DNA from: Cyanobium sp. Morenito 9A2
GTDB lineage: Bacteria > Cyanobacteriota > Cyanobacteriia > PCC-6307 > Cyanobiaceae
Length of the DNA stretch: 64,000 nucleotides
Direction of reading: 5' to 3'
NCBI RefSeq assembly: GCF_024345575.1
Contig: NZ_JAGQBJ010000004.1
Coordinates: 62,001 to 126,000 of the forward strand
In this document: in pieces, positions 52,154-54,913 of the stretch
How positions within the stretch are numbered: position 1 is the first letter of the stretch
Layout: each line of letters opens with the position of its first letter
Program-made: the position numbers and the translations under genes
The notes under the pieces: model-generated
What the model was told of the DNA's origin: nothing
Seen by the model: the letters and a program-made list of their open reading frames with translations, nothing else
Database searches by the model: none

Positions 52154-52629
52154 TGCTTGCTTTCCTGTTCGCCCCCCTTGGTCTGCTGGCGGCCCCGGTG
52201 CTGGGCAGCTGGCTGCCGGCACTGTTGCTGGTGTTCCACTTCGCCGGCCCGGTGCCCGACACCCTGGGCCCCGTGGCCGGCCAGCTGCCCCCCTGCACCG
52301 CCCCGGCCCACTGCGTGCGCGAGGACTGGCCCGTGGCCGACCCTGTCCTGGCCCTGGGGCGTCTGGCTTTTCAACTGGCATCCACCCCTGGCACCCGCGT
52401 GGAACGCTTCGACGAGCAGGAGCCTCAGCCCTACCTGCACGCCACCGACACCAGCAGCTTTTTTGGCTTCGTCGATGACCTCGAGTTGCTCGCCGACCCT
52501 GAGCGGGGCGTGCTGCAGGTGCGCTCCGAATCCCGTCTGGGGGATTCGGATCTGGGGGTCAACCAAGCCCGGGTGGATGGGCTCAGGCAAGGCCTCGCCC
52601 CGGTCTTACCCCAGGCTAGCCAGGGGTAG
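52153..52629 (+). CDS. DUF1499-family protein with N-terminal membrane segment
   Basis: The 158-residue protein has an N-terminal hydrophobic segment (residues 1-30), then DDLELLADPERGVLQVRSES and RLGDSDLGVNQARVDGLR, the DUF1499 signature. It has two Cys in LPPCTAPAHC. Function unknown. Translationally coupled to the YCII gene (TGATG). It ends convergently with the exported repeat protein. Confidence 0.82.
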   Translation: MLAFLFAPLGLLAAPVLGSWLPALLLVFHFAGPVPDTLGPVAGQLPPCTAPAHCVREDWPVADPVLALGRLAFQLASTPGTRVERFDEQEPQPYLHATDTSSFFGFVDDLELLADPERGVLQVRSESRLGDSDLGVNQARVDGLRQGLAPVLPQASQG

Positions 52630-52645
52630 GCCAAGGCCCCACGGC

Positions 52646-53722
52646 TCAGGCGTTGCCGAAGGCCACCTGGCAGGCCGAGTTGAGCAGCTCCGCCTCTTGG
52701 GCGTTTTGGGGCTCCTGGCCGTTGATCAGACCGGCGTTGCAGTCGGCGCTGAGCTCGTAGGTGCTGCCATCGGCGGTGACGGCGAAGGTCACCCCGGCGG
52801 TGCCGGAGGGCTGCACCGAGCCGAACAGCAACTGATAGTTGGTGTTCGGCACCACGATGTAGGTCTGGTTGCTGCTGATGGCGTCGTTGACGGCGCTGTT
52901 GATGATCGCCGCCGTCGCCAGGGTGCCGACGCCCCAGGCTGCGGCCCGGGCGCCCCACCAGCCCCAGGTGGGGGTGTTCCAGCCGCCATACCAGCCATGG
53001 TTCCAGGGCCGCGCCACGCCCCAGCCGGCCCGGGCCCAGCCCGGGCGCACGTTGACGTTGTTGAGGTTGACGTTGCGGTTCCAGTTGCGGTTGACGTTGG
53101 TCGAGCGGTTGATGGTCCGGTTGACGTCTCGATTGACGTTCCGGTTGAGGTCACGGTTGACGTCTCTGTTGAGGTTGCGGTTTCCATCGCGATTCAGGTC
53201 GCGATTGCCGGCCAGATCACGGTTGCCACCCGGACGGGCGATGTCGCGTGTGCCGGCGCCCCCTCCTCGGTTCAGGTCACGGTTGCCAGCCAGATCACGG
53301 CCGCCGCTGGGACGGTTCCCCGGGGTGCGATTGCCGAGGTTCGCGCCGCCCGCGGGGCGGTTGATCGACGGGTTGGCCCCGGGGGAGGACACCCGGTTGC
53401 TCCAGCCGCCGCTGGGCTTGCCGGAGCCTCTGTTGAGTCCGCCGCCGGCGTTGGCGAAGCCGGTGTTGGCGCGGTTCCCACCGCCCCCGCCACGATTCAC
53501 ACCGCCCCCGCCCCCGCCACGATTCCCACCACCACCACCGCCCATGCGGGCGCCACCGCCACCGCCGCCCCCTCGGGAGCCGCCGCCACCCCCTCTGCCG
53601 CCGCCGCGGGCGATCAGTTGCTGGCCGCCCAGGTCAGGGGTGCGATCGAAGGCCAGCCCCGCCCCGGCCGGGAGGGCGATCATGCCGGCCAGCACCAGGC
53701 CGAGTCCAGAGAGGCGTTTCAT
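52646..53722 (-). CDS. Exported Gly-rich protein with Asn/Arg/Asp/Leu tandem repeats
   Basis: The 358-residue protein has a signal peptide (LGLVLAGMIALPAGAGLAFD). A Gly/Arg-rich stretch follows at about 39-85, then a repeat region from about 140 to 215 with units of NRDLNRxxNRDVNR type, and a WGVARPWNHGWYGGW aromatic turn. A hydrophobic segment comes next (ARAAAWGVGTLATAAIINSAV), and a C-terminal globular part with two Cys (SADCNAGL, NSACQVAFG). Repeat and Gly regions look disordered. The function is unknown; a cell-surface role is inferred. It overlaps the upstream exported gene as ATGA. Confidence 0.75.
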   Translation of the reverse strand: MKRLSGLGLVLAGMIALPAGAGLAFDRTPDLGGQQLIARGGGRGGGGGSRGGGGGGGARMGGGGGGNRGGGGGGVNRGGGGGNRANTGFANAGGGLNRGSGKPSGGWSNRVSSPGANPSINRPAGGANLGNRTPGNRPSGGRDLAGNRDLNRGGGAGTRDIARPGGNRDLAGNRDLNRDGNRNLNRDVNRDLNRNVNRDVNRTINRSTNVNRNWNRNVNLNNVNVRPGWARAGWGVARPWNHGWYGGWNTPTWGWWGARAAAWGVGTLATAAIINSAVNDAISSNQTYIVVPNTNYQLLFGSVQPSGTAGVTFAVTADGSTYELSADCNAGLINGQEPQNAQEAELLNSACQVAFGNA

Positions 53723-54192
53723 TTCAGGTCCAGCTCGCAGCCTTCGTCGTAGCAGCTGGCGTTCGTGCGACCGGTGCCATCGAAGTGCACCTTGACCAGA
53801 TCCCGACCGGCCATCAGGTCGGGGCGGCCCTGGCTGACGCTGTTGAGGTAGTTGGGATTCACCACGCACAGCTCACGGCCGTTGAAGCAGACCGTGTTGG
53901 TGGAGAAGCGGGCCGAGGCGCTTTGCAGGAGCTTCCATTGCTTGGTGTCCTGCTGCCACATCTCCATCCGCAGGGGCTTGTCGGTGATGCGGATCGTTGC
54001 GATGGCCGTGCCGATGCGATGGCGATAGAGCGTGGCGCTGCCTTCGTTAATCGCCTCCACGCTGCAGGCCTGGGGGGCTCCACCGGCGACGCTGCAGCGG
54101 GTTTCCAGCTTGTAGAGGGATTCGGCGCGCCCGGGGGCCGTGGCCAGCAGGGCTCCTGCGGCCAGCAGCAACAGCAATGATCGATCGCGCAT
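53719..54192 (-). CDS. Exported Cys-containing protein of unknown function
   Basis: The 157-residue protein has a signal peptide (SLLLLLAAGALLATAPGRA). The mature part has six Cys (TRCSVAGGAPQACSVE, TVCFNGRELCVVNPN, SCYDEGCELDLK), enough for three disulfides in a compact exported domain. No family recognised. It is co-translated with the repeat protein downstream. A short palindrome (TCACG-gttt-CGTGA, 54245-54258) upstream might be an operator, but it is weak. Confidence 0.72.
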   Translation of the reverse strand: MRDRSLLLLLAAGALLATAPGRAESLYKLETRCSVAGGAPQACSVEAINEGSATLYRHRIGTAIATIRITDKPLRMEMWQQDTKQWKLLQSASARFSTNTVCFNGRELCVVNPNYLNSVSQGRPDLMAGRDLVKVHFDGTGRTNASCYDEGCELDLK

Positions 54193-54289
54193 GGGTGATG
54201 GGGAGATTGCTCTTCCCCTTATCTACCGAGATGCAACGTTCTCATCACGGTTTCGTGAATGATTGAAGCGATGGACCGAGGGAGAGGGT

Positions 54290-54913
54290 TCAGCCCAGCA
54301 GAGGTCTCAACTGCGGGAGCAGCGCCGCGAGGGCCTTGCCGCGGTGCCCCAGGCGTCGTTTGAGCGCCGGGTCCATCTCCGCGAAGGTCTGGCCGACCTC
54401 AGGCACCCAGAAGATCGGGTCATAGCCGAAGCCCCCTTCTCCCCGTGGGGCTTGGAGGATTTCCCCTGGGCAGATCCCCTCCACCTCCAGCACCGTGGTG
54501 CCACTGGGATCTGCCACCGCCAGGGCGGCGGTGAACCGGGCGTGGCGATGGACGGGTCTGTCGGGGCCTCCAGCGGCGTCAAGTTCCCTGAGCATGCGCT
54601 CGATGCGCGCGCCGTCGCTGGCGGCGTAGCGGGCCGAGTGAATCCCCGGCGCACCCCCCAGGGCGTCCACGCTGAGGCCTGAATCGTCGGCGAGGGCCCA
54701 GTGGCCAGTGGCCCGGGCCACTGCCTCGGCCTTGAGCCGGGCGTTGGCGGCGAAGCTGGTGCCCGTTTCCTCCACCTCCAGGCCCGCCGGCTGAGGTCGC
54801 ACCTCCAGCTCCAGATCCGCCAGCAGGGCCGTGAACTCCCGCAGCTTGCCGGCGTTGCCGCTGGCGATGATCAGCACCGTGGGGCTCCCCTGGAAACCGC
54901 AGCTTCGGCTCAT
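54290..54913 (-). CDS. rdgB: Non-canonical purine NTP pyrophosphatase RdgB/HAM1
   Basis: It removes dITP/XTP from the nucleotide pool. The 207-residue protein has IIASGNAGKLREFTALL, LADDSGLSVDALGGAPGIHS and EGGFGYDPIFWVPEVGQTFAEM, the family signatures. ATG 54913 overlaps the mutase stop as ATGA. The N-terminus is about ten residues longer than usual. Confidence 0.93.
   Translation of the reverse strand: MSRSCGFQGSPTVLIIASGNAGKLREFTALLADLELEVRPQPAGLEVEETGTSFAANARLKAEAVARATGHWALADDSGLSVDALGGAPGIHSARYAASDGARIERMLRELDAAGGPDRPVHRHARFTAALAVADPSGTTVLEVEGICPGEILQAPRGEGGFGYDPIFWVPEVGQTFAEMDPALKRRLGHRGKALAALLPQLRPLLG

Follow-up and report, generated by a model that had tools for sequence, protein, structure and literature searches.

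A conserved pair of overlapping genes encoding putatively exported proteins in Cyanobium and related picocyanobacteria

The window analyzed here, a 64,000-nucleotide stretch of a contig of Cyanobium sp. Morenito 9A2, contains two overlapping genes, A and B, on its minus strand. Gene A (53719-54192) encodes a protein of 157 amino acids with six invariant cysteines and a predicted beta-rich fold, and gene B (52646-53722, stop codon at 52646-52648) encodes a protein of 358 amino acids. The stop codon of A and the start codon of B share four bases (ATGA, 53719-53722, minus strand), an overlap that makes translational coupling of the two genes likely. Both proteins appear to be exported, as signal peptides were recognized by eye from the sequence at residues 1-23 of A (54124-54192, minus strand) and 1-24 of B (53651-53722, minus strand). 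The start of B is placed at the ATG at 53722, and not at the upstream GTG taken by a mechanical open reading frame (ORF) of 407 amino acids, because an A-B spacing of -4 recurs in 75 of 79 loci drawn from the best 80 of 142; two others have a spacing of -1, one has +4, and no start was found in the last. Thus, the initial annotation of a two-gene exported cassette agrees with the overlap and with the co-conservation of the genes in relatives, the signal peptides being those assigned by eye.

Comparison with a sister species (G051) indicates that both genes are under purifying selection. The dN/dS ratio is 0.22 for A, 0.16 for the C-terminal domain of B, and 0.20 for the signal peptide and linker of B, the linker estimate leaning on a gapped alignment of repeats. 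We reject the possibility that A and B are spurious ORFs, or a chance feature of DNA high in G+C, on the basis of this ratio of about 0.2 and the conservation of the genes. Two long ORFs on the plus strand (52157-53752 and 52869-53795) overlap A and B in antisense orientation and were treated as mechanical. Scans of the locus for promoters, terminators and Rfam families returned no match. The neighbors in the window, read from their translations, include fabI, hisB, a carotenoid oxygenase gene, rdgB and glmM, which we take to be ordinary cyanobacterial genes.

Protein A appears to be the cysteine-rich exported protein first proposed, with six cysteines (C33, C43, C102, C109, C147 and C152) following its apparent Sec signal peptide, all of them invariant in an alignment of 43 rows. 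Its AlphaFold model (mean pLDDT 84, pTM 0.73) consists mostly of strands with a helix at residues 113-122. A has no match in Pfam, none in the PDB by sequence, and none among structures searched with Foldseek at an E-value of 0.001; the Foldseek list is headed by PliC of Brucella, with an E-value of 0.45 and TM-scores below 0.4. PliC/MliC periplasmic lysozyme inhibitors are, as A is predicted to be, small exported beta proteins; however, A is longer, contains six conserved cysteines and lacks a Pfam match. The best VIA scores (Z 6.2 over 57-58 residues) were obtained with OspA and a fatty-acid-binding protein, a likeness read as a common beta arrangement over short aligned stretches. No similarity was found between A and the end domain of B.

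Protein B has a more composite organization. Its signal peptide is followed by the motif LIARGGG, a poly-Gly/Arg tract (residues ~39-83; 53474-53608, minus strand, with TRF arrays inside 53526-53607), a region of N-R-[DN]-[VLI] tetrapeptide repeats (residues ~141-226; 53045-53302, minus strand) recognized from the sequence, TRF and shuffles, a Trp-rich, glycine-zipper-like stretch that is strongly conserved in alignments (residues 227-283; 52874-53044, minus strand), and a compact C-terminal domain delimited by alignment and AlphaFold (residues 288-358; 52649-52861, minus strand). The poly-Gly/Arg tract, NRDL-type repeat and C-terminal cysteine pair singled out in the initial annotation are therefore all present. 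The end domain is modeled confidently over residues 288-356 (pLDDT of 90 or more over most of them) as four strands (288-290, 297-306, 310-317 and 320-327) and a helix (341-355). Its two cysteines, C328 and C351, are invariant; the model places C328 immediately behind a strand and C351 within the C-terminal helix, and the two probably form a disulfide.

In its predicted structure, the end domain of B looks like Haemophilus influenzae protein E (Adhesin_E, PF16747), another small exported protein that combines an antiparallel sheet with a C-terminal helix. Foldseek returned no match for B at an E-value of 0.001, and the VIA-align list comprises five entries, all of them Haemophilus protein E (Z 5.8 to 4.1); the best is a weak match (Z 5.8, rmsd 2.7, 76 aligned residues, 13% identity). 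The fold of protein E has six antiparallel strands and a C-terminal helix, whereas four strands and a helix are predicted in B, which also differs in that its domain is preceded by a long cationic tail. According to a structural description, protein E contains one disulfide, which joins its main helix to the end of strand 4 (PMC6652776), and C328 and C351 of B occupy the corresponding places in its modeled secondary structure. The Adhesin_E profile matched none of 26 B domains, including those of relatives, and nothing in the genome of the window at E-values up to 10, and hhalign comparisons of the B domain with cyanobacterial Adhesin_E members gave non-significant probabilities of 0.5-14% in several modes. 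The domain is thus called protein-E-like, and membership of Adhesin_E is not claimed, because there is neither a Pfam match nor profile-profile similarity. Of 194 genomes surveyed in the phylum, 21 do encode Adhesin_E proteins scoring over the cut-off (including those at L207, L210, L213, L218 and L220), many of them belonging to one family (f31) outside the class of the window.

The pair is kept in relatives, as the survey of homologues suggested in the initial annotation reveals. Of 251 genomes of the same family, 91 contain A and 102 contain the B end domain, and by our own reading of the two tables all 91 genomes with A are among the 102; in a sample of 339 genomes of the phylum the figures are 12 and 16, all 12 genomes with A belonging to the family of the window. 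Carriers include Synechococcus sp. WH 5701 (L075), Cyanobium usitatum, Vulcanococcus limneticus and Aphanothece. A lies directly upstream of B on the same strand in 79 of 80 loci, the 80th being cut by its contig end; these are the best 80 of 142, found with search patterns built from the B type that accompanies A, so that loci with B alone are under-represented. Likewise, for 106 of 114 A matches one of the 153 listed B domains lies no more than 2.5 kb downstream in the same orientation; of the other eight, five adjoin B, two are at contig ends and one is a short fragment (G086:C336). Pairwise distances for A correlate with those for the B domain (r 0.86 over 110 pairs, reached by none of 1,000 permutations), a value that includes shared species history. 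A record titled as a Bifidobacterium breve metagenome-assembled genome (bin-439, L122) contains a typical Cyanobium-type pair with sulfatase and formylglycine-generating enzyme (FGE) genes, and is most likely a mislabelled or mixed bin.

B domains also occur without A. Forty-nine of the 153 listed were counted as such, one of them wrongly, as a tandem pair in G072 had been matched to the farther B. Because B domains without A are common, A is not needed by all B-domain proteins. The genome of the window itself encodes a second B-domain protein without A (L002), with 41% identity over residues 226-357, and a genome of another family in the phylum sample (G286) has a lone B domain whose linker is made of NVPNRPVNTPNRPI units (L160). 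The linkers of lone B domains are unrelated to that of the paired B. Three lone B proteins (L175, 2300-2872; L176, 1330-1893; L195, 4333-5274) have a C-terminus made of a hydrophobic segment and then basic residues, which suggests anchoring in the envelope, and L195 and L175 each have two B-domain genes close together.

No named family accommodates the pair. Neither A nor B has a match over the cut-off in Pfam, NCBIfam, PHROGs or PADLOC; weak matches to HEWD (E 0.1) and to NuoI (E 0.0023; 17.6 bits, where the cut-off is 229) were put down to chance, as were weak matches of B or its profile to PDB sequences. Literature searches yielded no description of the pair, and a term search of PMC12834511 gave no match, in keeping with the initial view that no such system had been described. 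An exoproteome study that included strain WH5701 gives 247 proteins for that strain (PMC4949707).

A similar layout is seen in a DUF6515 (PF20125) protein (L168, genome G330), which contains a signal peptide, a low-complexity QNRDNE repeat, a Gly-rich hydrophobic stretch and a small end domain. It is one of the matches of the B-domain profile in the phylum sample, at a borderline E-value of 9.5e-4 over residues 17-76, and only the Trp/Gly-rich stretch is common to both; the DUF6515 profile matches neither B nor its relatives. In 59 genomes of the class, four have DUF6515 matches at E-values up to 0.001, three of them over the cut-off, a number insufficient for comparing profiles. To our knowledge, DUF6515 has no known function.

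The pair is frequently linked to a sulfatase cluster. In the best 80 of 142 loci, an FGE gene (PF03781) lies within 4 kb of the pair in 28, a sulfatase gene (PF00884) in 24, and both in 22. Among the 251 genomes of the family, a related sulfatase accompanies A in 61; 30 have A alone, seven the sulfatase alone and 153 neither (Fisher test p 1.8e-27, uncorrected for shared ancestry). Where both are present, 34 of 61 genomes have a sulfatase gene at most 14 kb from A, and these 34 span eight genera and include collinear and convergent arrangements; by our own estimate, such proximity is expected by chance in about 1% of genomes (28 kb of 3 Mb). Genes for a DUF1622 protein, a DUF202 protein, an SBF transporter, an MscS channel and an HAD hydrolase also recur, in a neighbor listing that relied on a home-made gene caller and missed B in some loci. 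Of the best 80 of 142 loci, 13 have an exported gene of outer membrane protein (OMP) type after B in the same orientation, its weak OMP_b-brl match (E 0.0035) falling below the cut-off.

Strong as it is, this linkage can disappear. The sister species G051 (L243, G051:C5) has seven genes in the order MscS-HAD-sulfatase-FGE-x-DUF1622-SBF, x being an unnamed membrane protein, between rdgB and A; in the window, 98 bases separate A from rdgB (54192-54290) and the cluster genes are absent there. A like sulfatase cluster is found on another contig of the same genome (L259, G000:C1). Thus, the cluster was relocated or lost between close relatives, and the link is not obligatory because 30 of the 91 genomes with A lack a close sulfatase and the genome of the window carries its cluster on another contig. 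The nearby sulfatase has no evident signal peptide by eye, and may therefore not act on surface polymers. In several genera (L245, L246, L254, L255 and L261), genes read by eye as an iron-type ABC permease and a binding protein are near the pair, often together with a Crp-type regulator. At L249 (9876-11986), the FGE gene and two tandem sulfatase genes flank a couple of related genes, of which at least one carries DUF1254/DUF1214 domains.

Such neighborhoods raise the possibility that A and B assist a cluster devoted to envelope stress or nutrient scavenging, in which B would be a periplasmic or outer-membrane accessory and not a matrix protein. The recurrent sulfatase, FGE, SBF, DUF202, DUF1622, MscS and HAD genes, and their insertion between rdgB and A in G051, favor this alternative; the genomes in which A lacks a close sulfatase, and the window, where the pair stands alone, do not. 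It is unlikely on balance, while deserving more weight than the other alternatives.

The linker of B bears most directly on what the protein might bind. In the window, the tetrapeptide repeat is clearly above chance, with 30 self-matches at lag 4 against 12.1 +/- 3.0 in same-residue shuffles (none of 2,000 reaching 30) and TRF periods of 12, 24 and 36 bases within 53060-53182. Among 78 orthologues, the number used for linker statistics from the best 80 of 142 loci, a run of at least four consecutive NRxx units is present in 27, and 20 have one unit at most; some carry R/D-rich, R/S/Q/T-rich or G/V/P-rich (GVGTPGLNRP) stretches in place of the repeat. The net charge of the linker is positive in all 78 (median +0.10 per residue), with 14% Arg and a median of zero Lys. 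As far as sequences go, it is the charge and the end domain of B that are conserved, and not the eye-catching repeat. AlphaFold assigns low confidence and no regular strands up to about residue 270; over the repeat, where the alignment is shallow and messy, ten-residue means of pLDDT are about 36-61. The linker is thus predicted to be disordered.

A reading of the repeat as a beta-solenoid, the form first proposed, or as an amyloid-like surface fiber draws on its strict period of four and its alternation of polar and hydrophobic residues. It is highly improbable, as the model contains no strands over the repeat and has low confidence there, runs of four or more units are confined to about a third of the orthologues, and the linkers of other B-domain proteins are unrelated. 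The other suggestion made at the outset, binding of polyanions, fares better in that the uniformly positive linker is consistent with it; however, charge alone does not show binding.

A disordered, Arg-rich secreted protein also invites comparison with mineral-binding proteins. B could be a mineral-nucleating or silica- or carbonate-binding matrix protein with A as its partner, and its predicted disorder, cationic linker and export would suit such a role; nevertheless, no biomineralization marker was seen nearby, and we rate the chance as small as that of a solenoid. Least probable of all is a secreted toxin-immunity or antagonism pair with A protecting against B, as its fixed gene order and tight coupling are outweighed by the apparent export of A itself, the many B-domain paralogues without A, and the lack of any match to a toxin-like or defense family.

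The reading we prefer, tentatively, is of A and B as a translationally coupled pair exported to the surface or matrix, in which the cationic tail of B binds anionic polymers. B would leave the cytoplasm by the Sec route and lose its signal peptide. Its disordered, net-positive linker, rich in Arg, Gly and Asn, would then bind anionic polymers electrostatically, such as exopolysaccharide, lipopolysaccharide and possibly sulfated ones, with the Trp-rich stretch and the small, probably disulfide-bonded end domain docking B onto the envelope or a partner. A would be a co-made, disulfide-stabilized, beta-barrel-like partner, either a co-secreted subunit or a periplasmic escort of B. A fuller version is more speculative and on present evidence rather doubtful: a lineage-specific picocyanobacterial secretion pair comprising a protein-E-like domain, a fast-evolving glue tail conserved in charge, and a co-translated disulfide-rich partner, with enzymes of the sulfatase cluster tuning (sulfated) exopolymers.

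Among primary producers, picocyanobacteria of the Cyanobium/Synechococcus group are abundant, and no part of their proteome contains more unknowns than the exported proteins. The A-B pair is real, conserved and without a family name, and it is most likely a hitherto unstudied system that acts at the cell surface or binds slime. A nameless exported pair that is conserved and sometimes present in several copies provides a handle on how these cells may produce surface polymers or attach to them, and on their aggregation and sinking.
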